Below are positions 32,409 to 45,175 of a stretch of 64,000 nt of DNA, piece by piece (within the stretch, counting starts at the first letter, position 1; every line of letters starts with the position of its first letter). The notes under the pieces are model-generated. The model was not told where the DNA came from. It did no database searches and saw nothing but the letters and a program-made list of their open reading frames with translations. The DNA is from Asanoa iriomotensis (GTDB taxonomy: Bacteria; Actinomycetota; Actinomycetes; Mycobacteriales; Micromonosporaceae). The stretch is taken from the NCBI RefSeq assembly GCF_016862515.1, contig NZ_BONC01000010.1, forward strand, positions 62,001 through 126,000. The letters are read 5' to 3'. Position numbers and translations under genes: made by a program.

Positions 32409-33103
32409 ATCGGATCATGGACGTGGCCTGTGGTGGCGGGGCGCTCTCGGCGTGGCTGGCCGATCGCACGACCGCGGACGTGGTCGGCGTCGACCAGTCG
32501 GCCAGCCAGCTCGCGCACGCCCGCCGGTGGCTCGCCGGCGGAACCCGACCGAAGCTGCGTTTCGTCCAGCAGGACGTCATGCGTCTCGGTGACCTCGCCG
32601 AGCCGCCCGTCGATGCCGTGATCTGCCTCGACGCCGCCTGCTACTTTCCCGACCGCCGGGCGGCGCTGCGCGGGATGGCGGCCCGCCTGCGCCCGGGGGG
32701 CCGGGTGCTGCTGGTCGACTGGTGCCGCGCCGAACACGCCACCAGGCTGCAGCGCGAGCTGATCCTCGATCCACTGTGCCGCTACTGGGCGATCGCCGAT
32801 CTGGAGACCGCCGAAGGCTATCGCCGGTCGTTCGAGACCGCTGGCTTCCACGTCCTCGCCCTGGACGACCTGTCCGACCAGGTGACGCCCAACTGGGAGC
32901 GCGGCTACCAGGCGGCGCTGCGCGCCGTCGCCGAACCGGTCCGGATCGACCGGATCCTGCGCCTGGCCGCCGCCGCCGTCAGGCACGGCAGCCTGGCCGT
33001 CCAAGCGGCCAAGGAGCAGTTCCAGGTCGCACTGCTCGCCAAGGCCGCCGCCGACTCGGGGCTGCTCCGCTACGTGTCGGTCCAGGCCGAGCGCGTCACG
33101 TGA
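32246..33103 (+). CDS. Class I SAM-dependent methyltransferase
   Basis: A 285-residue methyltransferase. Motif I is 'IMDVACGGGALSAWLAD' (about 57-73), with 'DVVGVDQSASQLAHARR' as motif II, 'QQDVMRLGDL' and 'DAVICLDAACYFPD' as motif III, and 'LRPGGRVLLVDW' after it. The overall plan matches Erg6/gamma-tocopherol-type small-molecule methyltransferases. The N-terminus is oddly short: the frame upstream continues as 'FRPRYRENM', which looks like family sequence, so an original longer N-terminus may be lost. It overlaps the hydrolase reading frame by 163 bases. Confidence 0.87.
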   Translation: MQTGFDALVELYYTYWGEYFHLALFEPGDDPADLVTAYERTHERYLDAIGGPGVNRIMDVACGGGALSAWLADRTTADVVGVDQSASQLAHARRWLAGGTRPKLRFVQQDVMRLGDLAEPPVDAVICLDAACYFPDRRAALRGMAARLRPGGRVLLVDWCRAEHATRLQRELILDPLCRYWAIADLETAEGYRRSFETAGFHVLALDDLSDQVTPNWERGYQAALRAVAEPVRIDRILRLAAAAVRHGSLAVQAAKEQFQVALLAKAAADSGLLRYVSVQAERVT

Positions 33104-33569
33104 GTTGAGCCAGCGGGAGCGGGCCCCGGGTCTTGACCGTGCGGATCGCGAACGTGCTGTGCGCGTCGACGATCGACGGGATGGTCAGGATCTGGTCGAT
33201 GAGCAGGTGTTCGTACGCGGCCAGGTTGGCGACCGCCGCTTCGACCAGGATGTCGGCGCGGCCGGAGATGATGTGGCACGCGACGATCTCCGGGATGGCG
33301 GTCAGCGCCGCCTCGATCCGGGCGGCCGTCTCCCGGGAGTGGTGGTCGACCCGCAGCTCGACGAAGACCGTGAGGTCGAGGCCGAGCCGGGCGCGGTCGA
33401 GCTCCGCCCGGTAACCCGCGATCAGGCCGTCCGACTCCAGCGCCCGCACCCGGCGCAGGCACGCCGACGGTGACAGGCTGACCGCCTCGGCCAGGTCGAC
33501 GTTGGCGATCCGGCCGTCGGCCTGGAGCCGGTCAAGGATGGCGCGGTCGGTGCTGTCGTACGACGTCAT
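33096..33569 (-). CDS. Lrp/AsnC-family transcriptional regulator
   Basis: A 157-residue regulator. The AsnC-type HTH spans about 1-60 ('DSTDRAILDRLQADGRI', 'VDLAEAVSLSPSACLRRVRAL'). The RAM ligand-binding domain spans about 65-145 ('HIISGRADILVEAAVANLAA', 'IVDAHSTFAI'). ATG 33569 gives the canonical N-terminus. It is divergent from an amino-acid/polyamine-type permease, the classic arrangement in which an Lrp-type protein senses the transported substrate. Three symmetric sites lie between them. Confidence 0.9.
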   Translation of the reverse strand: MTSYDSTDRAILDRLQADGRIANVDLAEAVSLSPSACLRRVRALESDGLIAGYRAELDRARLGLDLTVFVELRVDHHSRETAARIEAALTAIPEIVACHIISGRADILVEAAVANLAAYEHLLIDQILTIPSIVDAHSTFAIRTVKTRGPLPLAQLT

Positions 33570-33599
33570 CGGCACATCATGCGATCGGAGGCGCGATCC

Positions 33600-33670
33600 G
33601 CGCAACGATGTTGCGCCTTGAAGATCAACAGCAGGCACATTTGCCATCGCGTGCGGCGGCACAGTTGCCA
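33600..33670. promoter_or_regulatory. Putative Lrp/AsnC operators
   Basis: GCGCAAC-gat-GTTGCGC (33600-33616) is a perfect 17-bp palindrome. Two further near-palindromes, GGCACATTTGCCA (33634-33646) and GGCACAGTTGCCA (33658-33670), repeat with a 24-bp period. Multiple phased sites are typical of Lrp octamer wrapping. They fill the 112-bp gap between the regulator and the permease start at 33682. Confidence 0.6.
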
Positions 33671-33681
33671 GACTCCGGAGT

Positions 33682-35067
33682 ATGACCAGCGACATCGGCA
33701 CAGCCCGTGGCAGCGCGCTCTACATCGGAGCACTGCTCGGTCCCGGTCTCCTGCTGCTTCCCGGGCTCGCGGCGCACCAGGCCGGCCCGGCCTCCGTCGT
33801 CGCCTGGGCCGTGCTGCTCGGCGCCTCGGCGCTGTTCGCCGTCGTCTTCGCGGCGCTCGGCGTGCGGCATCCGTCGGCCGGCGGCGTCTGGGGCTACGCC
33901 ACCGCCGGGCTCGGGCCCCGCGCCGGCCGGGCGGTCGGCTGGTGCTTCCTGGCCGGTGTGATCGCCGGTGCGCCGATCGTCTGCGTGATCGGCGGCAACT
34001 ACGTCGCCGAGTTGACCGGCGGCGGCGTCCGGGTCGCCGTCATCACCGCGGCCCTGCTGCTCGTCGGCACACTGACCGTCATCGCGCTGGGCGTGCGCGC
34101 CTCGGCGAGCGTCCAGTTCGGACTCGTCGCCCTGCTCCTGGTGATCGTGGTCGGTGCGGTGGTCGGTGCGGCGCCCGCCGCCGAGGCCGACAACTGGACA
34201 CCGTTCGCTCCACACGGCTGGTCCGCGATCGGGCGGGCAGCCGCGACGCTGATGCTCGCGTTCGTCGGCTGGGAGGCGATCGCGCCGCTGACCACCCGGA
34301 TCGCCAAGCCGCACCGGGTCATCGCGATCGCGTTCACCGCCACCGCGGTCATCTACCTGGCGCTGGGCATCGTGACCGTCGCGGCGCTCGGCGACCGGGC
34401 CGGCACCGAGGTGCCGCTGGCCGCGCTGCTCACCATCGGGCTCGGCGGCACGGCCGGCACCGCCGTCGCGGCGGTCGGCGCCGTGGTGCTCACGGTCGGG
34501 GCGGTCCTCGCCTACGTCTCGGGCGCGGCGAGCCTGGCCCGCGCGCTCCGGCCTAAGGGCGGGTCCTGCCGATCAACGCGGCCTGCGACGGGCCCAGCCG
34601 CCGCCTGGCGGCGTCTCGGGATCATCCGGATACAACACCGGTATCCGGGCAATCCCGAGCCACTGCCAGACAACGCCTGGACTCCGTCTCGGCTCACGTT
34701 GATCGGCAGGACCCGCCCTTTGCCGGTCCGGACCGACACCCTGCCGCCCTGGCTCGCGGGCGCGGTGCTCGTCTCCGGTCTCGTGCTGATCGGGCCCTTG
34801 GCCACCGGGCGGATCGACCTGACCACCCTGGTCAACGTGCCCACCACGTTCTTCCTCGTGGTCTACCTCGGCTGCACCGCGGCCGGCTGGCGGCTGCTGC
34901 GCGGCGGCCCGCGGATCTGCGCGGCGGTCGCCTGCGGCATGGTCGCGGTCGTGCTGGCCTTCTGCGGGTTCGCGCTGGTCCCGGCCGCCCTCGTCACGCT
35001 GGCAGCGGTCATCAGGTGGCCACGCTTGCTGCCGTTGCGGGCCGAGGCTAGTCTCCGCGAGAGGTAG
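33682..35067 (+). CDS. APC-superfamily permease carrying an in-frame repeat-element insertion
   Basis: A 461-residue amino acid/polyamine permease. Helix 1 has 'YIGALLGPGLLLLPGLAAHQ' (the unwound G-x-G region of the APC fold), and 'GGVWGYATAGLGP' and 'TLMLAFVGWEAIAPLTTRI' are typical of the YjeH/SteT-like group. Residues 292-347 are encoded entirely by a 166-bp inverted-repeat element ('SCRSTRPATGPAAAWRRLG', 'HRYPGNPEPLPDNAW'). They lie in an Arg-rich, probably cytoplasmic loop after 'GAASLARALRP'. The frame stays open and the last helices follow in phase ('LAGAVLVSGLVLIGPLA'), so a functional product with a 55-residue loop extension is possible. It is probably controlled by the divergent Lrp regulator. 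Confidence 0.85.
   Translation: MTSDIGTARGSALYIGALLGPGLLLLPGLAAHQAGPASVVAWAVLLGASALFAVVFAALGVRHPSAGGVWGYATAGLGPRAGRAVGWCFLAGVIAGAPIVCVIGGNYVAELTGGGVRVAVITAALLLVGTLTVIALGVRASASVQFGLVALLLVIVVGAVVGAAPAAEADNWTPFAPHGWSAIGRAAATLMLAFVGWEAIAPLTTRIAKPHRVIAIAFTATAVIYLALGIVTVAALGDRAGTEVPLAALLTIGLGGTAGTAVAAVGAVVLTVGAVLAYVSGAASLARALRPKGGSCRSTRPATGPAAAWRRLGIIRIQHRYPGNPEPLPDNAWTPSRLTLIGRTRPLPVRTDTLPPWLAGAVLVSGLVLIGPLATGRIDLTTLVNVPTTFFLVVYLGCTAAGWRLLRGGPRICAAVACGMVAVVLAFCGFALVPAALVTLAAVIRWPRLLPLRAEASLRER
34555..34720. repeat. MITE-like inverted-repeat element, copy 1 (inside permease gene)
   Basis: The 166-bp element has perfect 24-bp terminal inverted repeats: left begins AAGGGCGGGTCCTGCC (34555-34578), right is its complement (34697-34720). 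An internal hairpin GCCGCC-GCCT-GGCGGC lies at 34597-34612. It matches copy 2 at 43115-43280 with the same length and 13 differences by my count. It carries no transposase and no clear target duplication. Its interior is GC-rich like the host. Confidence 0.92.
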
Positions 35068-35068
35068 C

Positions 35069-35083
35069 TCGAAACATTTTCGA
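35069..35083. promoter_or_regulatory. LacI-type operator before the first LacI gene
   Basis: TCGAAA-CAT-TTTCGA is a perfect inverted repeat 16 bases before the GTG of the LacI-family gene at 35099. The same CGAAA/TTTCG half-sites recur upstream of the GH3 operon at 39595. This suggests autoregulation or cross-regulation by a LacI protein. Confidence 0.65.
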
Positions 35084-35098
35084 CGTGGGGAGACGAGG

Positions 35099-36133
35099 GT
35101 GCCGGAGGGCCCGCGGGCCACGCTCGCGATGGTGGCCGAGTCGTGCGGCGTCTCGCTGCCCACGGTCTCCAAGGTGCTCAACGGCCGCGCCGACGTCGCC
35201 GCCGCCACCCGGGCGCGGGTCGAGGAGGCGCTGCGGGCGCACAACTACCGCCCGCCGGGCGCGCGGACGCGGGGCATGCCGGCCGCTGCCCGCACGGTCG
35301 AGCTGGTCTTCGACGACATCATCAGCCCGTACGCGACCGAAGTGCTGCACGGTGTCACCGACGGCGGCGACGAGCTCGGCGTCGACGTGGTGGTCCGCCG
35401 CCTGCCCTCGCTCTCCGAGAAGCCGCCGCGCACCGAGGCTGCCTGGGCACGGCGACTGACCGAGGCCGGGCGCAAGGGCCTGATCGTGGTCACCTCCGAG
35501 CTGACCTCGCGCCAGCTCGCCGCGTTCGACCGCGCGGGCCTCTCGCTGGTCGTCATCGACCCGGTCAACCTGCCCCGCTCCGACGTGGTCAGCGTCGGCG
35601 CCACCAACTGGAGCGGCGGGCTGGAGGCCACCGACCATCTGATCCGCCTCGGCCACCGGCGGATCGCGTTCGTCGGCGGGCCGGTCGCGTCGTCGCCGAG
35701 CCGGGCCCGGCTGCACGGCTACCGCGCGGCCCTGGAGAACGCCGGCATCCGCTCCGACCCGGCGCTGATCCGCAACGGCTCGTTCGACTTCGTCTCCGGG
35801 CTGATGCTCGGCGGCGAGCTGCTGTCGGCGAAGGAGCCACCGACCGCGGTGTTCGCGGCCAGCGACCCCACCGCGGTGGGCGTGTTCGCCGCTGCCCAGG
35901 CACGCGGCCTGCGGGTGCCCGACGACCTGAGCGTCGTCGGGTTCGACGACACCTACCTGACGGTGATGTCGATGCCGGCACTCACCTCCGTGCGGCAGCC
36001 GCTGCGGGAGATGGGCCGGGTCGCCCTGCGTACCCTGTTGAGCTTGATCGCGGGGGAGAAGCTCGACTCGCACCACGTCGAGCTGGCCACCACGCTCGTG
36101 GTCCGCGAGTCGACAGCCAAGCCGCGACGCTAA
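35099..36133 (+). CDS. LacI-family transcriptional regulator (paralogue 1)
   Basis: A 344-residue LacI/GalR protein. HTH about 8-28 ('LAMVAESCGVSLPTVSKVLN') with hinge 'RARVEEALRAHNYRPP'. The periplasmic-binding-like sensor spans about 65-340: 'VELVFDDIISPYATEVLHGV', 'VVIDPVNLPRSDVVSVGATN', 'HRRIAFVGGPVASSPS' and 'DDLSVVGFDDTYLTVMSMP'. It is very similar to the convergent paralogue at 36130; the ends 'HHVELAT-LVVRxST' are nearly identical, so they stem from a duplication. Its own promoter region carries a CGAAA/TTTCG palindrome. It probably senses a xylo- or gluco-oligosaccharide taken up by the importer at 39910. Confidence 0.9.
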   Translation: MPEGPRATLAMVAESCGVSLPTVSKVLNGRADVAAATRARVEEALRAHNYRPPGARTRGMPAAARTVELVFDDIISPYATEVLHGVTDGGDELGVDVVVRRLPSLSEKPPRTEAAWARRLTEAGRKGLIVVTSELTSRQLAAFDRAGLSLVVIDPVNLPRSDVVSVGATNWSGGLEATDHLIRLGHRRIAFVGGPVASSPSRARLHGYRAALENAGIRSDPALIRNGSFDFVSGLMLGGELLSAKEPPTAVFAASDPTAVGVFAAAQARGLRVPDDLSVVGFDDTYLTVMSMPALTSVRQPLREMGRVALRTLLSLIAGEKLDSHHVELATTLVVRESTAKPRR

Positions 36134-37164
36134 ACGGAAGCGGTCGAGCCTCGCACGACCAGCTCCGTCGCCAGCTCGACGTGGTGCGAGTCGAGTCGCT
36201 CGCCGGCCGCCAGCCGCAGGGCGGTGCGCAGCGCCACGCCGCCCATCTCCCGCAAGGGTTGGCGCACCGTGGTCAGCGGCGGTGAGGACAGGCGGGCGAC
36301 CTCGGTGTCGTCGAAGCCGACCACGCTCAGGTCGTCGGGCACCCGCAGCCCGCGCGCCCGGGCCGCCTCGATCACGCCGGCCGCCGTCTCGTCGCTGCCG
36401 GCGAAGATCGCTGTCGGCGGCGCCGGCAGGTCGAGCAGGGCAGCGCCGCCCGCGACGCCGTCCCGATAGCGGAAGTCGCCGGTGCGCTGGTATTCGTCGG
36501 GCACCGTGACACCGGCCGCCTCCAACGCGGCCCGGTAGCCGTGCAGCCGGGCCTGGTTGCAGGCCGACCGGGTCGCGCCGCCGACGTAGCCGATCCGCCG
36601 GTGGCCCAGCGACAGCAGGTGCTGGGCCGCGGCCAGCCCGCCGGCGAAGTTGGTCGAGCCGACGCTGGTGACCCGGTCGCGCTGGAGGTTGAGCGGGTCG
36701 ATCACGACGAGCGGCAGGTGGGCGCGGGTGAGCGCGGCGATGTCCGCGGAGGTCAGCTCGTCGACCACCGCGATCACCGCCCGGCGGCCCGCGGTGGCCA
36801 GGTCGCGGGCCCAGCCGCGCGGTCGCGAAGGGTCGGTGCCGGCCGCGGCGCGCGGGCGGACGCTGACCACGACCGCGACACCCGCGTCGCCGCCGGCCTC
36901 CAGCACACCCTGGATGATCTCCGTCGAGTAGGCATTCAGCTCGCCGTTGAACATCAGCTCGATCCGGGCCGTGGCCGGGCTGCCCTTGGCCGCCGGTGAC
37001 CGGCGACCGATGTAGGCGTGCTGCTCCAGCAGCGACTCCACCAGCGCGCGGGTCTCCGGGCCCACGTCGGAGCGACCGTTGACCACCTTGGACACGGTGG
37101 TCACGGACACGCCGGCCGACGCGGCGACGGTGGCCAGCGTCGCGCGCCGAACCTTGGGCGGCAC
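36130..37164 (-). CDS. LacI-family transcriptional regulator (paralogue 2)
   Basis: A 344-residue LacI/GalR protein. HTH 'LATVAASAGVSVTTVSKVVN' and sensor blocks 'ARIELMFNGELNAYSTEIIQ', 'DPLNLQRDRVTSVGSTNF' and 'DDLSVVGFDDTEVARLSSPP'. GTG 37164 is preferred because AGAGGAAGG lies six bases upstream; ATG codons at 37182-37185 lack a site. It lies immediately downstream of the GH3 gene on the same strand and should be in its operon. Its stop interleaves with paralogue 1 (convergent, CTAA). Two sequence-similar regulators in one locus could split control of two operator types seen nearby. Confidence 0.9.
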   Translation of the reverse strand: MPPKVRRATLATVAASAGVSVTTVSKVVNGRSDVGPETRALVESLLEQHAYIGRRSPAAKGSPATARIELMFNGELNAYSTEIIQGVLEAGGDAGVAVVVSVRPRAAAGTDPSRPRGWARDLATAGRRAVIAVVDELTSADIAALTRAHLPLVVIDPLNLQRDRVTSVGSTNFAGGLAAAQHLLSLGHRRIGYVGGATRSACNQARLHGYRAALEAAGVTVPDEYQRTGDFRYRDGVAGGAALLDLPAPPTAIFAGSDETAAGVIEAARARGLRVPDDLSVVGFDDTEVARLSSPPLTTVRQPLREMGGVALRTALRLAAGERLDSHHVELATELVVRGSTASV

Positions 37165-37181
37165 GGACGACCTTCCTCTCA

Positions 37182-39557
37182 TCACGGACCAGTTGGTGCG
37201 ACTGCCACCGGTGTGTCCAGGCGCCGGTCGTGCCCGACGACGCGGGTCGGCCCGGCGAGCCGTACCGTACCGCGCAGCGGCAGGTCCTCGGCGGACGTGC
37301 CGACCAGCACGTCGACGTCGCCGGCCTCGACGATCCGGCGCAGGTCGCGGCCCGTGAACGCGGTGCGGTCGGCGTGCACGGCGAACGTCACGTCGGCGGC
37401 CGCGCCGGGCGCCAGCTCGACCCGGGCGAACCCGGCGAGCTGCTTGACCGGGCGGACCACCTGGGCGACCACGTCGTGCAGGTAGAGCTGAACGACCTCG
37501 GCGCCGGACCGGTCACCGGTGTTGCGGACCCGGGCGCTGACGGTGAACTCGCCGTCGGTCGCCACCTCGGCAGCCGAGACCCGCAGATCGGAGACCACGA
37601 AGCTGGTGTAGGACCGCCCGTGCCCGAACGGGAACAGCGGCGTCGGGTCGAGGCTGCTGATGTCGGTGCTGTCCGCACCGAGCGGCGGTTGCAGGTAGGT
37701 GCCCGGCTGGCCACCGGGGTCGCGCGGGATCTGCACCGGCAGCTTGCCGCTGGGCTGCACCCGGCCGGAGAGCACGCCGGCGATCGCGGCGCCGCCCTCC
37801 TCGCCCGGCATGAACGCCTGGACCAGCGCGGCGGCCCGGCCGTGCACCTCGCCGAGCGCGTAGGGGCGGCCGGAGACCACCACCACGACCACCGGCGTGC
37901 GGGTGGCCAGCAGCTCCGCGAGCAGGTCGGCCTGCACGCCCGGCAGCCGCAGGTCGGGCGCGTCGCAGCCCTCGCCGGAGGTGCCGTGCGCGAACAGCCC
38001 GGCCAGGTCGCCCACGAACGCCACGCAGACGTCCGCCGCGCGGGCCGCCGCGACCGCGGCCGCGAAACCCGACCGGTCGTCGCCCTGGATCTCGCAACCC
38101 GGCTCGTACGCGATGTCCGCACCCGGCAGCTCGGCGCGCAGCGCGTCGACCGCGGTCGGCACGTCGACACCGAGGCCGAGCCCCGGGTGCCGGGGCAGCA
38201 CGTGGTTGGGGAACGCGTAGCAGCCCATGAACGTGCGGGGCTCGGCGGCGCACGGCCCGACCACCGCGACCCGCCCGGTGCCGGCCAGCGGCAACGCGCT
38301 GCCCGGGTCGAGCAGCACGATCGAGCGCTCGGCGATCTCCCGGGCCAGCGCCCGGTTGGCGGCCGAGTCGAGCGCGACGGTGTCGGCGCCGGCGACCGAG
38401 CCTTCCGGTGTCCACGAAGGATCGAGCAGGCCCAGCGAGACCTTCTGGGTGAGCAGCCGGCGGGCGGCCCGGTCGACGAGCTCCTCGGGGACCTTGCCCG
38501 CGCGTACCAACGCTTCCAGCGCGGCGCCGTAGCCGATCGTGTCGGGCAGCTCCACGTCGATGCCGGCGGCCAGGGCCAGCGCGCCGGCCTCGGCGTCGTC
38601 GGCGGCGATGTGGTGCATGGAGGCCAGGAACGGCACCGCCCAGTAGTCGGAGACCACCGTGCCGGTGAAGCCCCAGTCGTCGCGCAGCACGTCGGTGAGC
38701 AGCCACCGGTCGGCGCCGGCGGGCACGCCGTCGACGTCGGCGTAGGAGTTCATCACCGAGCCGGCGCCCGCGACCGCCACCGCGGTCTCGAACGGCGGCA
38801 GGATCACGTCGATCAGCTCGCGCCGGCCCATCGAGACCGGGCCGTGGTTGCGCGCGCCGCGGGACGCGGAGTAGCCGGCGAAGTGCTTGAGAGTGGCGAT
38901 CACGCCCGCGCTCTGCAGCCCGCGCACGTAGGCGGCACCCAGCATCGAGACCAGGTAAGGGTCTTCGCCCATCGTCTCCTCGACCCGGCCCCAGCGGTAG
39001 TCGCGCACGACGTCGAGCACCGGGGACAGGCCCTGGTGCACGCCGACCGCGGCCATGTCGCGGCCGATCGCGGCGGCCATCCGCTCGACCAGGTCGGGGG
39101 AGAACGTGGCGGCCCAGGCGATCGCGGCGGGGTAGACGGTCGCGCCGTAGCTGGTGAAGCCGGTGAGGCACTCCTCGTGCACCAGGGCCGGGATGCGCAG
39201 CCGATGGGCGTCGAGCACGACGTGGTGCTGCCGCACCAGCTCAGCCGCGCCCTCGACGGCGGTGACCGGTGCGCTGCCGTACACCCGGGTGAGGTGACCG
39301 AGGCCGTGCCGGCTGACCTCCTCGAGCGGCCGGTCGCCCGCGGAGAAGACGTCCTGCATCGGCGCGACGTTGTGGTCCTCGACGAAGATCGGCTCGGCGT
39401 CGGGCTCGTGCAGGTCCTTGCGCAGCCACCGGCTGCCGAGCTGGGCGATCTTCTCTTCGAGGGTCATCGCGCGAAGCATCAGCTCGACCCGGTCGGCGAC
39501 GGGGCGGCTGGTGTCGTTCCACGGCTGGGTCGCGACCTGCGCGGGTTGGGTGGTCAC
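37182..39557 (-). CDS. GH3 beta-glycosidase (beta-xylosidase/beta-glucosidase type)
   Basis: A 791-residue intracellular GH3 enzyme without a signal peptide. The N-terminal barrel (about 25-350) has 'HEECLTGFTSYGATVYPAAI', 'WGRVEETMGEDPYL', 'TLKHFAGYSASRG' and the nucleophile in 'GTVVSDYWAV' (Asp304). The alpha/beta sandwich (about 390-610) has 'EIAERSIVLLD', 'VAFVGDLAGLFAHGTSGEGCD' and 'VVVVVSGRPYALGEV'. A fibronectin-III-like domain (about 650-720) follows 'FPFGHGRSYTSF'. The cytoplasmic location fits hydrolysis of imported oligosaccharides. The xylosidase idea rests on similarity in layout to bxl-type loci and on the adjacent transketolase, and is not proven. It is divergent from the importer and carries a LacI-type operator upstream. 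Confidence 0.9.
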   Translation of the reverse strand: MTTQPAQVATQPWNDTSRPVADRVELMLRAMTLEEKIAQLGSRWLRKDLHEPDAEPIFVEDHNVAPMQDVFSAGDRPLEEVSRHGLGHLTRVYGSAPVTAVEGAAELVRQHHVVLDAHRLRIPALVHEECLTGFTSYGATVYPAAIAWAATFSPDLVERMAAAIGRDMAAVGVHQGLSPVLDVVRDYRWGRVEETMGEDPYLVSMLGAAYVRGLQSAGVIATLKHFAGYSASRGARNHGPVSMGRRELIDVILPPFETAVAVAGAGSVMNSYADVDGVPAGADRWLLTDVLRDDWGFTGTVVSDYWAVPFLASMHHIAADDAEAGALALAAGIDVELPDTIGYGAALEALVRAGKVPEELVDRAARRLLTQKVSLGLLDPSWTPEGSVAGADTVALDSAANRALAREIAERSIVLLDPGSALPLAGTGRVAVVGPCAAEPRTFMGCYAFPNHVLPRHPGLGLGVDVPTAVDALRAELPGADIAYEPGCEIQGDDRSGFAAAVAAARAADVCVAFVGDLAGLFAHGTSGEGCDAPDLRLPGVQADLLAELLATRTPVVVVVVSGRPYALGEVHGRAAALVQAFMPGEEGGAAIAGVLSGRVQPSGKLPVQIPRDPGGQPGTYLQPPLGADSTDISSLDPTPLFPFGHGRSYTSFVVSDLRVSAAEVATDGEFTVSARVRNTGDRSGAEVVQLYLHDVVAQVVRPVKQLAGFARVELAPGAAADVTFAVHADRTAFTGRDLRRIVEAGDVDVLVGTSAEDLPLRGTVRLAGPTRVVGHDRRLDTPVAVAPTGP

Positions 39558-39594
39558 GGGGTGGTGCCTCCTTCGCGCAAGATAGCGGAACGGT

Positions 39595-39611
39595 CTTCGA
39601 AACTTTCGAAG
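39595..39611. promoter_or_regulatory. Perfect 17-bp LacI-type operator upstream of the GH3 operon
   Basis: CTTCGAAA-C-TTTCGAAG is a perfect palindrome 38 bases upstream of the GH3 start. The CGAAA/TTTCG core equals the site before LacI paralogue 1 and resembles the CGAA-N-TTCG operators reported for BxlR-type xylobiose regulators. Confidence 0.7.
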
Positions 39612-39721
39612 CTGGCGGTGCTCTTGCGGACCGTCCGGCTACCGGCGGTCAGCGTCGGGACCATGGCGACGTGCCTTGCGCTGGGCTTACTTTCGCCGAT
39701 CAGAACGGCGGCTTCAAGCCC

Positions 39722-39750
39722 TTGACACGTTGATGGCGGAATCCTACGTT
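39722..39750 (+). promoter_or_regulatory. Candidate promoter of the sugar importer operon
   Basis: A consensus -35 TTGACA (39722-39727) is followed after 17 bp by TACGTT (39745-39750) as -10. A second CTACGTTAA box follows at 39763. The 352-bp gap 39558-39909 otherwise holds the two palindromes listed separately and no gene. Confidence 0.55.
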
Positions 39751-39826
39751 GACTTGAAAATTCTACGTTAATTTGCGAGATCACCGGCCGAAAATTCCCT
39801 GACCGGGCACCCATGTGCATGGCTGT

Positions 39827-39838
39827 GGGAGCGCTCCC
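39827..39838. promoter_or_regulatory. GGGAGCGCTCCC operator before the sugar-binding protein gene
   Basis: This perfect 12-bp palindrome, in context TGGGAGCGCTCCCT, matches the well-known LacI-family cel-box/CebR consensus TGGGAGCGCTCCCA. It lies 72 bases before the GTG at 39910 and downstream of the likely promoter, where a bound repressor would block elongation. Confidence 0.75.
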
Positions 39839-39909
39839 TCACGGCCGGTGACGTCGCGCCCTCGATCGATCAGCCGCGCCTGACGCGGCACACGAGTACG
39901 GAGGTCAGC

Positions 39910-41247
39910 GTGGAGCGCAACATCCTGTCCCGGCGGAACTTCCTGGGTCTCTCCATGGGCGTGGGCGCCGGTGTCGCGCTCGCCGCCTGCGGCAGCTCCG
40001 GTCCCGGCACCGGGTCCGGTGGCGGCAGCGGTGCCGGTGCGGCCAGCTACTGGTTCCTCACCGGCGCACCTGGTGAGGGCATCCGCACCAACACCGTCAA
40101 CCGGTTCAACCAGGCCAACCCCAACAGCAAGATCACTGCGACGACGTTCCAGAACGACGCGTACAAGACGAAGATCAAGACTGCCATCGGCGCCGGCCAG
40201 GCGCCGACCATCATCTGGGGCTGGGGCGGCGGCACGCTGCGCAGCTACGTCCAGGCCGGCCAGGTCGAGGACCTGACCTCGTGGTTCGGCGAGAACGCGG
40301 CCGTCAAGGACCGGCTGTTCCCGTCGTCGTTCGGTGCGGCCACCATCGACGGCAAGATCTACGCGATGCCCGCCGAGACAGTGCAGCCGATCGTCCTGTT
40401 CTACAACAAGCGGGCCTTCGAGAAGATCGGCGCGCAGCCCCCGACGACCTGGGGCGACGTCATGGACCTCGTGCCCAAGTTCAACGCGGCGAAGATCGCG
40501 CCGTTCTCCCTCGGCGGCCAGTCGCGCTGGACCAACATGATGTGGCTCGAGTTCCTCTTCGACCGCATCGGCGGCAGCGAGGTCTTCCAGGCGGTCTTCG
40601 ACGGCCAGAAGGACGCCTGGTCGCACCCGGCCGCGTTGCAGGCGCTGACCATGACCCAGGACCTCATCAAGGCCGACGGGTTCATCAAGGGCTTCTCCTC
40701 GATCACCGCCGACTCCAACGCCGACCAGGCATTGCTCTACACGGGCAAGGCGGCGATGATGCTGCACGGTACGTGGACCTACGGCGGTATGGCCGCCGAC
40801 GGAGGTGACTTCGTGTCCAGTGGCAGCCTCGGCTACATGAACTTCCCGCCGGTCGACGGCGGCAAGGGCGACGTCTCCGACACGGTCGGCAACCCCGGGC
40901 AGTACTACTCGATCTCCTCGAAGGCCACGGCCGAGCAGAAGGAGACCGCGAAGAAGTTCTTCAAGGACGCGGTGCTCGCCGACGCCGAGGTCAAGGAGTG
41001 GGTGGACGCCGGTGCGGTGCCGATCGTCAAGGGCACCGAGAGCGCGTTCAGCGCCTCCAAGGACGCCGACTTCCTGAAGTTCGTCTACAACACGTCGGCC
41101 AACGCCAAGACCTTCGCGCAGTCGTGGGACCAGGCGCTGAGCCCGACCGCGGCGGAGAAGCTGCTCGACAACATCGCGCAGCTCTTCCAGCTCAAGATCT
41201 CGCCACAGCAGTGGGTGACCAACATGAACGGGACGATCGGGCAATGA
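39910..41247 (+). CDS. Sugar ABC transporter substrate-binding lipoprotein
   Basis: A 445-residue SBP_bac_1 protein. The signal begins 'LSRRNFLGLSMGVGAGVALAAC', with twin Arg and lipobox LAAC, so it is perhaps Tat-exported and lipidated. A Gly/Ser linker leads to the ligand domain: 'AGQAPTIIWGWGGGTLRSYV', 'ETVQPIVLFYNKRAFEK', 'FSLGGQSRWTNMMWLEFLFD' and 'GKAAMMLHGTWTYGG'. GTG 39910 follows GGAGGT. It ends in an ATGA overlap with the first permease. The layout (SBP, two permeases, GH3, LacI) parallels beta-xyloside and cello-oligosaccharide import loci. Confidence 0.92.
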   Translation: MERNILSRRNFLGLSMGVGAGVALAACGSSGPGTGSGGGSGAGAASYWFLTGAPGEGIRTNTVNRFNQANPNSKITATTFQNDAYKTKIKTAIGAGQAPTIIWGWGGGTLRSYVQAGQVEDLTSWFGENAAVKDRLFPSSFGAATIDGKIYAMPAETVQPIVLFYNKRAFEKIGAQPPTTWGDVMDLVPKFNAAKIAPFSLGGQSRWTNMMWLEFLFDRIGGSEVFQAVFDGQKDAWSHPAALQALTMTQDLIKADGFIKGFSSITADSNADQALLYTGKAAMMLHGTWTYGGMAADGGDFVSSGSLGYMNFPPVDGGKGDVSDTVGNPGQYYSISSKATAEQKETAKKFFKDAVLADAEVKEWVDAGAVPIVKGTESAFSASKDADFLKFVYNTSANAKTFAQSWDQALSPTAAEKLLDNIAQLFQLKISPQQWVTNMNGTIGQ

Positions 41248-42170
41248 CCACCCTCGCTCCGCCCGTCCAGCGGAGGAGCAGCGAACAGACCTCCGCGGGC
41301 GGGCGGAGCGGGCCCGTCGCGTGGCTGGCCCTCCCGGCGTTCCTGATGTTCGCCGCGTTCGGGATCATCCCGCTGATCGGCGTGCTGGTGCTCAGCTTCA
41401 CGCAGTGGGACGGCATCGGCGACATCCACCCGGCGGGCTTCGACAGCTGGACCACGGTCCTCAAGGATCCCGGTCTGGTGCACGCGCTCTGGGTCACCTT
41501 CCTGATCATGGCGCTGTCCTGGGCCTTCCAGACCCCGCTCAGCCTGCTGATCGGCGTCTACCTGGCGACGCAGAACCGCTACCGCGAGATCCTCGCGGTC
41601 ATCTACTTCGTGCCGCTGCTGCTCAGCTCCGCGGCCCTGGCGATCACCTACAAGGCGCTGCTCGACCCCAACTTCGGGCTGGGCGCCGGGCTCGGCATCC
41701 CGTTGCTGCAACAGGACTGGCTCGGCCGCGACAACCTCGCCCTCGGCGTGCTGGTGTTCGTGGTCTCGTGGCAGTTCATCCCGTTCCACTCCCTGATCTA
41801 CCAGAGCGGCGTGCGGCAGATCCCGACCGCGATGTACGAGGCGTCCGAGATCGACGGTGCCGGCCGGGTGCGGCAGTTCTTCAGCATCACGCTGCCCCAG
41901 CTCAAGTACACGATCATCACGTCGTCGACGCTGATGGTGGTCGGCTCGCTGACGTTCTTCGACCTGATCTTCGTGCTCACCGCCGGCGGGCCCGGTGACG
42001 CCACCCGCGCGCTCGCTCTCGACATGTACAAGCGCGGTTTCCAGGCCAACCTGATGGGCCCGGCGAGCGTGATCGCGGTGATCCTCGTGCTGGTCGGCCT
42101 CGGGCTCGCGCTGCTGCTGCGCCGCCTGGGCGGGCGGGACGCGACCGAGAGCCAGATGGAAGGCGTGTGA
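41244..42170 (+). CDS. Sugar ABC transporter permease (MalF-like)
   Basis: A 308-residue permease with six helices, the first being 'ALPAFLMFAAFGIIPLIGVL'. The EAA loop is 'AMYEASEIDGAGRVRQFFSI', near residue 195. ATG 41244 overlaps the SBP stop. The next permease starts two bases after its stop. No ATPase gene accompanies them, so a shared MsiK-like ATPase elsewhere is expected. Confidence 0.92.
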   Translation: MTTLAPPVQRRSSEQTSAGGRSGPVAWLALPAFLMFAAFGIIPLIGVLVLSFTQWDGIGDIHPAGFDSWTTVLKDPGLVHALWVTFLIMALSWAFQTPLSLLIGVYLATQNRYREILAVIYFVPLLLSSAALAITYKALLDPNFGLGAGLGIPLLQQDWLGRDNLALGVLVFVVSWQFIPFHSLIYQSGVRQIPTAMYEASEIDGAGRVRQFFSITLPQLKYTIITSSTLMVVGSLTFFDLIFVLTAGGPGDATRALALDMYKRGFQANLMGPASVIAVILVLVGLGLALLLRRLGGRDATESQMEGV

Positions 42171-42171
42171 C

Positions 42172-43074
42172 GTGGCGACGACCCTGACGACGACGGCGCC
42201 CGACCGGACGACCGAACCACGCGCGCCGCACCGGCCCGTCCTGCGCGGCCGCCGCCGGCGGGTCAACCTGCCGGCCGGCGTGGCGGGCCTGATCTGGCTG
42301 GCGATCGTGCTGATCCCGCTCTACTGGATCCTCATCACCAGCCTCAAGACGCAGGCCAACTATTTCCTCAGCAACCCGTTCACGCCGCCGACCGATCCGA
42401 CCCTCGACAACTACCGCATGGTGATCGAGGCCGACTTCGTCCGGTACTTCGTCAACAGCGTGATCGTGACGGCGGGCGCGGTCATCCCGGCCGTGGCGAT
42501 CTCGTTCATGGCCGCGTACGCGATCGTCCGGGCCGGCAACCGCAGCCGGTTCCTGCGCGCGGTCAACTCGGTGTTCCTGATGGGCCTGGCGATCCCGCTG
42601 CAGGCCGTGATCATCCCGGTCTACCTGATCATCATCCGGCTCAAGATGTATGACACCCTGATGGCGATCATCCTGCCCTCGATCGCCTTCGCCATCCCGC
42701 TGTCCGTGCTGGTGCTCTCCAACTTCATCCGCGACGTGCCGCGCGAGCTGTTCGAGTCGATGCGGATGGACGGCGCCAGCGAGTGGGGCACGCTCCGGCA
42801 CCTGGCATTCCCGCTCGTGCGGCCCGCGCTGATGACCGTGACGATCTACAACGGACTGTCCATCTGGAACGGCTTCCTGCTGCCGCTGATCCTGACCCAA
42901 AGCCCCACTCAGCGCACGCTGCCGCTGGCGCTGTGGACCTTCCAGGGGCAGTACAGCATCAACGTGCCCGCGGTGCTCGCGTCCGTGGTGCTGACCACCC
43001 TGCCGATCCTCGCGCTCTACGTGGTCGGCCGGCGGCAGCTGGTCAGCGGCCTGACGGCCGGCTTCAGTAAGTAG
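42172..43074 (+). CDS. Sugar ABC transporter permease (MalG-like)
   Basis: A 300-residue permease. A Thr/Arg-rich N-terminus of about 35 residues precedes 'GLIWLAIVLIPLYWILITSL'. The EAA loop is 'ELFESMRMDGASEWGTLRHL', and the C-terminus 'GRRQLVSGLTAGFSK' is typical of MalG. It is the last gene of the importer operon before the second 166-bp repeat element, which separates it from the transketolase gene. Confidence 0.92.
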   Translation: MATTLTTTAPDRTTEPRAPHRPVLRGRRRRVNLPAGVAGLIWLAIVLIPLYWILITSLKTQANYFLSNPFTPPTDPTLDNYRMVIEADFVRYFVNSVIVTAGAVIPAVAISFMAAYAIVRAGNRSRFLRAVNSVFLMGLAIPLQAVIIPVYLIIIRLKMYDTLMAIILPSIAFAIPLSVLVLSNFIRDVPRELFESMRMDGASEWGTLRHLAFPLVRPALMTVTIYNGLSIWNGFLLPLILTQSPTQRTLPLALWTFQGQYSINVPAVLASVVLTTLPILALYVVGRRQLVSGLTAGFSK

Positions 43075-43114
43075 GTTCAACGTCCCCGCGCGGGGTATGC
43101 GGCCCGGAAGGGAC

Positions 43115-43280
43115 TAGGGCCTGTCCTGCCGATCAACGCGGCCTGCGACGGGCCCAGCCGCCGCCTGGCGGCGTCCCGGGATCACCCAGATACAACACCG
43201 GTATCCGGGCAATCCCGGGCCACCACCAGACAACGCCTGGACTCCGTCTCGGCTCGCGTTGATCGGCAGGACAGGCCCTA
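43115..43280. repeat. MITE-like inverted-repeat element, copy 2 (intergenic)
   Basis: The 166-bp element has perfect 26-bp terminal inverted repeats: left begins TAGGGCCTGTCCTGCC (43115-43140), right is its complement (43255-43280). It has the same internal GCCGCC/GGCGGC hairpin and a CCGGG-CAAT-CCCGG hairpin (43206-43219). The outer arm bases differ from copy 1 yet remain paired. It lies between the importer operon and transketolase and probably would be co-transcribed or act as an attenuator. The 229-bp intergenic interval holds nothing else but the ribosome-binding site of the next gene. Confidence 0.92.
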
Positions 43281-43303
43281 AACCACGCCGCGAAGGGGAC
43301 ACC

Positions 43304-45175
43304 GTGACCAGCACAGCGACCATCGCCGACCTGTCCACCGCGCGCGAGGTGGCCCGGCAGCTCCGGGTCGACTCCGTGCGGTCCAGCACGAGCGCCGGAT
43401 CCGGCCATCCCACCTCGAGCATGTCGGCCGCCGACCTGCTCGCGGTGCTGGTCACCCGGCACCTGCGCTACGACTGGGACAACCCGGGGAACGACGCCAA
43501 CGACCACCTCATCTTCTCCAAGGGCCACGCCTCACCGCTGCTGTACGCCGTGTACAAGGCGGTGGGCGTGATCTCCGACGAGGAGCTGATGACCGGCTAC
43601 CGGCGGTTCGGGCAGCGGCTGCAGGGCCATCCCACGCCGGTGCTGCCCTGGGTCGACGTGGCCACGGGCTCGCTCGGCCAGGGTCTGCCGGACGGTGTCG
43701 GCGTGGCGCTGGCCGGGCGCTACCTCGACGAGGTGCCCTACCGCGTCTGGGTGCTCTGCGGCGACAGCGAGATGGCCGAGGGATCGATGTGGGAGGCGCT
43801 GGACAAGGCCGCCTACTACCGGCTCTCGAACCTGGTCGCGATCGTCGACGTCAACCGGCTCGGCCAGAGCGGGCCGACGGAACTGCAATGGGACCTCGAC
43901 GCGTACGCCCGGCGGGCCGAGTCGTTCGGCGCCCGCGTGCTGATCGTCGACGGGCACGACGTGGACGCGATCGACGAGGCGTACACCTCGGCCACAAACC
44001 GCACCGACGACCGCCCGACGGTGATCCTCGCCCGCACGCTCAAGGGCCGCGGCTTCAGCGAGGTCGAGAACCTGGAGGGCTGGCACGGCAAGCCGCTGCC
44101 GGCGGAGATGGCGCAGCGGGCGATCCGGGAGCTGGGCGGCGAGAGCGACCTGGTGGTGCGCGGTCCGCAACCGCCGGACGAGCAGCCGGCGACCCGGCCG
44201 GCGCCGCGGGAGATGCCGGATCTGCCGCGCTGGGAGGTCGGTGAGAAGGTCGCGACGCGGCGGGCGTACGGCGACGCGCTGACCGCGCTCGGCGGCGGCC
44301 ACCCGCGGATCGTGGCGCTCGACGGCGAGGTCGGCAACTCCACCTACTCGGAGGAGTTCGCGAAGGCGTTCGGCGACCGGTTCTTCGAGATGTACATCGC
44401 CGAGCAGCAGATGATCGCGGCCGCGGTCGGGCTGTCCGTGCGGCACTACGTCCCGTTCGCCTCCACGTTCGCGGCGTTCCTGTCGCGGGCGTACGACTTC
44501 ATCCGGATGGCGTCCATCTCGCGCGCGAACATCCGGCTGGTCGGCTCGCACGCCGGCGTCGAGATCGGCGCGGACGGGCCGTCCCAGATGGCGCTGGAGG
44601 ACCTGGCAATGCTGCGGGCCGTGCAGGGCTCGACGGTGCTCTACCCCAGCGACGCGGTCAGCACGGCCGCGCTGGTGCGGGCCATGGTCGGGCTGGACGG
44701 CGTGAGCTACCTGCGCACGACCCGCGGCGCGTACCCGGTGCTCTACGACCAGGGCGAGGACTTCCCGATCGGCGGGTCCAAGGTGCTGCGGTCGAGCCCC
44801 GACGACGCGGTGACGCTGGTCGGTGCCGGCGTGACCCTGCACCAGTGCCTGGCGGCGGCCGACCAGCTCGCGGCCGACGGCATCCGGGCGCGGGTGATCG
44901 ACCTGTACTCGGTCAAGCCGATCGACACCGCGACCCTGCGCGACGCCGTGGCCGCCACCGACGGGCGGATCGTCGTCGTCGAGGACCATCACCCGGAGGG
45001 CGGGCTCGGCTCGGCGGTCGCCGACGCGCTGCTGGCCGCCGGCGCGCCGACGCTGCGCTTCACCCACCTCGCGGTGCGCGAGCTGCCCGGCTCCGGCTCG
45101 ACGGCCGAGCAGCTCGGTGCCGAGGGCATCGACGCCGACACCATCGCCGGCGCCGCCCGCGCGCTGACTAGTTGA
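43304..45175 (+). CDS. Transketolase (one-piece, thiamine-dependent)
   Basis: A 623-residue enzyme. The N-terminal TPP domain has 'SAGSGHPTSSMSAADLLAVL', 'FSKGHASPLLYAVYKA' and 'GDSEMAEGSMWEALDKAAYYRLSNLVAIVDVN' (the GDG-like motif). The pyrimidine domain has 'DGEVGNSTYSEEFAK', 'EMYIAEQQMIAAAVGLS' with the catalytic Glu, and 'YVPFASTFAAFLSRAYDFIRM'. The C-terminal domain has 'VIDLYSVKPIDTATLRDAV'. It resembles mammalian-type TKTL more than the classical 660-700-residue bacterial enzyme. GTG 43304 follows GAAGGGG. Its place after a beta-glycoside importer suggests pentose-phosphate flow from xylose units. It converges on the zinc-finger gene with an 8-base overlap. Confidence 0.9.
   Translation: MTSTATIADLSTAREVARQLRVDSVRSSTSAGSGHPTSSMSAADLLAVLVTRHLRYDWDNPGNDANDHLIFSKGHASPLLYAVYKAVGVISDEELMTGYRRFGQRLQGHPTPVLPWVDVATGSLGQGLPDGVGVALAGRYLDEVPYRVWVLCGDSEMAEGSMWEALDKAAYYRLSNLVAIVDVNRLGQSGPTELQWDLDAYARRAESFGARVLIVDGHDVDAIDEAYTSATNRTDDRPTVILARTLKGRGFSEVENLEGWHGKPLPAEMAQRAIRELGGESDLVVRGPQPPDEQPATRPAPREMPDLPRWEVGEKVATRRAYGDALTALGGGHPRIVALDGEVGNSTYSEEFAKAFGDRFFEMYIAEQQMIAAAVGLSVRHYVPFASTFAAFLSRAYDFIRMASISRANIRLVGSHAGVEIGADGPSQMALEDLAMLRAVQGSTVLYPSDAVSTAALVRAMVGLDGVSYLRTTRGAYPVLYDQGEDFPIGGSKVLRSSPDDAVTLVGAGVTLHQCLAAADQLAADGIRARVIDLYSVKPIDTATLRDAVAATDGRIVVVEDHHPEGGLGSAVADALLAAGAPTLRFTHLAVRELPGSGSTAEQLGAEGIDADTIAGAARALTS

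Follow-up and report, generated by a model that had tools for sequence, protein, structure and literature searches.

In-frame fusions of MITEs with genes have been called "not unusual", with the Rickettsia palindromic elements (RPEs) as their extreme case (review, PMC10969869): these are palindromic repeats of about 150 bp that lie in frame in many protein genes and add peptide to their products. In Coxiella burnetii, the hairpin MITEs QMITE1 and QMITE2 in some cases lengthen a reading frame or lie in phase within one (PMC5896051), and the ERIC and Correia/NEMIS elements are short palindromic hairpin MITEs with TA ends and a mostly intergenic location (PMC10969869 and general knowledge). We describe here a hairpin repeat from the soil actinobacterium Asanoa iriomotensis, two copies of which lie in the analysed window (a 64,000-nucleotide stretch of contig NZ_BONC01000010.1), the first of them within the reading frame of a permease gene.

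Likened by description to the RPEs, this repeat differs from them in that its host is a free-living actinobacterium, in that its ends match an IS5/IS427-type element, and in that, in place of recurrent in-frame insertion, we find one clear, stop-free in-frame case among about 105 copies. The ERIC and Correia/NEMIS elements, similar to it in general form, have other hosts, whereas here matched and strongly variable outer arms surround a core that is kept from genus to genus; QMITE1, at 300-400 bp, exceeds the repeat in length, has different ends and belongs to an intracellular pathogen. The permease capture itself is a known type of event, and the original prediction, which held such captures to be uncommon in free-living bacteria, was partly right, given the assessment in the review cited above; the repeat family and its matched arm variation are the more open matter. 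With its insert-free orthologues, the locus offers a clean example from a free-living actinobacterium of how a mobile hairpin that is not itself coding can join a membrane protein.

The permease and its additional loop segment

The host gene (positions 33682..35067, forward strand) is a 461-aa ORF of the APC family, with a match to Pfam PF13520 (AA_permease_2) over residues 12-289 (E 1.3e-20; 74.2 bits against a Pfam gathering cut-off of 27) and orthologues in five Asanoa genomes. No stop interrupts the frame across repeat copy 1, as had been predicted, and the stretch that alignment finds absent from the orthologues spans 165 nt (34555..34719, forward strand), read as codons 292-346 by arithmetic from position 33682; the predicted gain of about 55 residues thereby stands, only its end at residue 347 requiring correction. 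The junctions read ...ALRP[element]LPVRTDTLPPW..., and the remainder of the protein aligns in phase, the helices downstream of the repeat being in frame and aligned with those of the orthologues, in keeping with the earlier expectation and with no shift of frame relative to homologues.

At the corresponding place between TM8 and TM9, the stretch from the helix end ...LARALRP to the next helix (LPRW or similar) amounts to no more than about 4-11 residues in A. hainanensis (G003, locus L034), A. siamensis (G005, L032), a further genome (G004, L033) and the more distant G036 (L035). Since the orthologues are so short here, the segment is, judging from these alignments, a lineage-specific gain; among the species compared it is unique to that of the window, rather than a conserved segment carried by all orthologues, which supports the proposed capture of the repeat as a permease loop. 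Unrelated inserts of 34-50 residues follow ALRP in the same loop of A. ishikariensis (G001, L030), where the insert includes a tandem duplication, and of G002 (L031), indicating that the site tolerates length change. By sequence comparison the same loop has been lengthened in three of six Asanoa species, each time by different means, which illustrates how a permissive loop can grow.

In the APC fold the TM8-TM9 loop is cytoplasmic. The segment contains ten K/R and two D/E residues, and this basic charge suits such a location by the positive-inside rule; together with the helix order, from which the topology is deduced, it supports the predicted cytoplasmic placement. An AlphaFold model built with 8 sequences gives residues 293-352 low predicted order and places helices after them; its mean pLDDT of 54.7 is too low for a structural claim, which we dropped. 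Third-position GC of the codons drops from 0.93 ahead of the element to 0.75 within it and is 0.96 beyond it. The ratio of C-terminal to N-terminal divergence is 1.08-1.70 for the window permease and 1.14-2.22 for other species pairs, and this lack of excess C-terminal divergence suggests that permease function may have been retained despite the element.

Stop-free reading through the repeat is unremarkable. Of 33 aligned copies, 31 have no stop in the frame that the permease uses, and copy 1 is itself open in two of its three sense frames; in composition-matched shuffles, any one frame is open in about 36%. With openness shared in this way among copies, an open frame needs no selection. The original prediction that the element is stop-free in this frame is true, and ordinary. 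What is rare is the setting: when codon-position GC was used to look for coding sequence on either side of about 105 distinct copies, drawn from Asanoa and further genera (116 places were counted, about ten being the same copy twice), the permease copy alone had same-strand, same-frame, stop-free coding flanks. Where both flanking neighbours are clearly coding, they are arranged in tandem in 30 cases, convergently in 21 and divergently in 13, and in several tandem cases (L086, L110, L114 and others) the TAG at the element edge forms the stop codon of the upstream gene. Recurrent capture was rejected after the insert peptide was sought in 251 genomes of the family and the collected loci were assessed by codon-position GC, the permease copy alone passing; similar hits with long open frames, such as those in G001 and G002, were likewise rejected as captures, being intergenic once the coding frames were examined.

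The hairpin repeat and its ends

Both copies are 164 nt long and are assigned to the reverse strand. Copy 1 (34556..34719), antisense to the permease, folds with G.U wobbles around a CGGTGTT loop; copy 2 (43116..43279), 93% identical to it, falls between two genes, one for a sugar ABC permease and the other of transketolase type, and has TA at either side. Each is predicted to form a single long hairpin, with folding energies over 176 nt of -126.4 and -123.1 kcal/mol for copies 1 and 2 and z values of -12 and -13, respectively, against dinucleotide shuffles. On the forward strand, the terminal inverted repeats of copy 1 lie at 34556..34579 (left, AGGGCGGGTCCTGCCGATCAACGC) and 34696..34719 (right, complementary to the left and ending in GGCAGGACCCGCCCT), columns 3-26 of the alignment pairing with columns 143-166, and a private outer repeat, GGGCGGG, is present at both ends. 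Most copies have TA at both ends, whereas copy 1 has AA on the left and TT on the right, with an extra A at its left junction (CTAAGGG vs YTAGGG in most copies). A terminal TA, its own reverse complement, is indistinguishable from inverted repeat; at copy 1, with AA and TT instead, a target duplication is unreadable.

The description that suits the repeat best is that of a MITE whose ends are of IS5/IS427 type: it is short, has no transposase gene and occurs in many copies, with 22-47 covariance-model matches per Asanoa genome over both strands. The 21-nt terminal repeat TAGGGCGTGTCCTGCCGATCA, which is that of some copies in the same genome and two mismatches from that of copy 1, also occurs with a one-base variant in pairs flanking elements of about 0.93 kb in the sister species G004, so that the terminal repeats of the hairpin and of these transposase elements differ by 0-2 mismatches over 21 nt. 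The G004 elements have TA at their ends and carry two overlapping ORFs matching DUF4096 and DDE_Tnp_1, a layout that we take to be that of the IS427 group of the IS5 family. The shared terminal repeat fits a MITE using such ends, and the repeat would have been moved by a transposase, possibly that of an IS of the G004 type; it differs from these elements in having no transposase and, as far as seen, a core unrelated to the IS interior. No complete IS bearing the 21-nt terminal repeat was found in the draft genome of the window species, and searches with terminal-repeat patterns gave no pair at IS spacing, among the places listed, that could represent an autonomous IS for the other end types (CTATCCG... 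and CTGTTTCATAACTGGGG).

A known RNA family was rejected: Rfam 15 has no match at the gathering threshold in positions 33000-44000, and with five other copies it returned only mir-607, at 31 bits and far under the threshold of 94. Several draft contigs start or end inside element copies (L014, L015, L017, L019, L020).

Probable in-frame insertion and competing explanations

We put at roughly 0.8 the probability that a MITE with IS5/IS427-type ends inserted in frame into the TM8-TM9 loop of the APC permease in the Asanoa lineage, contributing about 55 extra, probably unstructured and positively charged residues. Insertion into the loop region would have been driven by transposase, and the net gain of 165 nt would have kept the frame by chance. 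The element with a TA duplication amounts to 164 nt, so that a one-base change at the junction would be needed, or else a non-standard insertion; the extra A at the left junction may be this 1-nt adjustment. The loop would then be translated as additional cytoplasmic residues, with transport kept. Against this reading, copy 1 shows no readable target duplication, the AlphaFold model is poor, and a recent inactivating insertion would look identical at the sequence level. The frame would in that case be open merely through the youth of the event and the openness of the element, and the protein would be either not made or not functional; the prevalence of open frames among the copies, with no selection needed, is compatible with this, as are the very stable hairpin placed in the mRNA and the departure of the element from the codon bias of its flanks. 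Yet the frame has been kept, although just one in three insertion lengths would do so, two further species also have a long loop here, and no excess change is seen downstream; we regard a disabling insertion as unlikely, though well short of negligible.

Far less probable is a new domain, structured or adaptive, whose peptide selection has moulded. The open frame in most copies and in two of three sense frames could be read in its favour, but this openness follows from GC-rich paired sequence that intergenic copies have in common, what is conserved across the family is the pairing of bases and not a reading frame, and the segment is confined to one of the species compared; on the same grounds of pairing-based conservation and open frames in intergenic copies, a conserved coding peptide was rejected. 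Equally improbable is a misjoining of the repeat into the permease during assembly, for which the draft state of the genome (187 contigs, several ending inside element copies) would give occasion: a single contig carries the two halves of the permease, correctly ordered and spaced, and the private outer repeat of copy 1 is present at both of its ends.

Family spread, matched arms and strand preference

Relatives of the repeat were found in 158 of 301 Micromonosporaceae genomes, belonging to 21 of the 44 genera sampled, and restriction to one genus was therefore rejected; many of these matches cover the core only (query positions 24-141). The 33 Asanoa copies give 72 predicted pairs, in which 98.7% of cells are able to pair, with double-sided change in 36 of the 72 pairs, against 19.7 when shuffled and 9-13 when partners are slid. 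Double-sided changes dominate in the outer arm, where one-sided changes are rare, and near-identical cores can carry quite different ends (GTCCTGCCGATCA, CTATCCGACGG and CTGTTTCATAACTGGGG), each matched within its copy. In an alignment across genera, double-sided change is seen in 42 of 64 pairs, with the CGGTGTT loop and inner motifs fixed.

G.T exceeds A.C by 313 to 72 in Asanoa and by 144 to 62 in other genera, under a scoring that treats both alike and with counts that are not independent, as the copies are related. In 53 of 53 copies the CGGTGTT strand has the lower predicted RNA folding energy (mean differences of about 35 and about 29 kcal/mol), these copies too being related. The G.T excess and the energy bias together point to one favoured strand in the hairpin family and to an RNA stage, or one in which that strand is present as single-stranded DNA. 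The matched arms and the favoured strand call for a mechanism, for which correction templated by the hairpin, an exchange of ends and selection acting on an RNA are candidates. We tentatively consider, as a view that may well prove wrong, that these are mobile hairpins found throughout the Micromonosporaceae. In this view one strand of the core, with its conserved loop and inner motifs, would work as a structured RNA (or as single-stranded DNA), the outer arms would be replaced or corrected in match so that one core can bear several IS-type ends, and the permease capture would be a by-product of this mobility. We could not find the family described in Rfam or in the papers searched; a literature search on such elements in Micromonosporaceae, which took in only a minority of subscription journals, found nothing relevant.

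Several Asanoa genomes also carry a diverged subfamily of the hairpin, of about 170 nt (L098, L099, L105, L107, L113-L116). One copy (L007; G000:C21:108163-108330) differs from the others in the orientation of its apical loop, which is inverted with respect to the stem as though the tip had flipped. Inverted repeats of another kind are found downstream of the permease, where two similar LacI-type regulator genes (35099-36133, forward strand; 36130-37185, reverse strand) face each other with ends overlapping by 4 nt and appear as inverted repeats that are 72-82% complementary.
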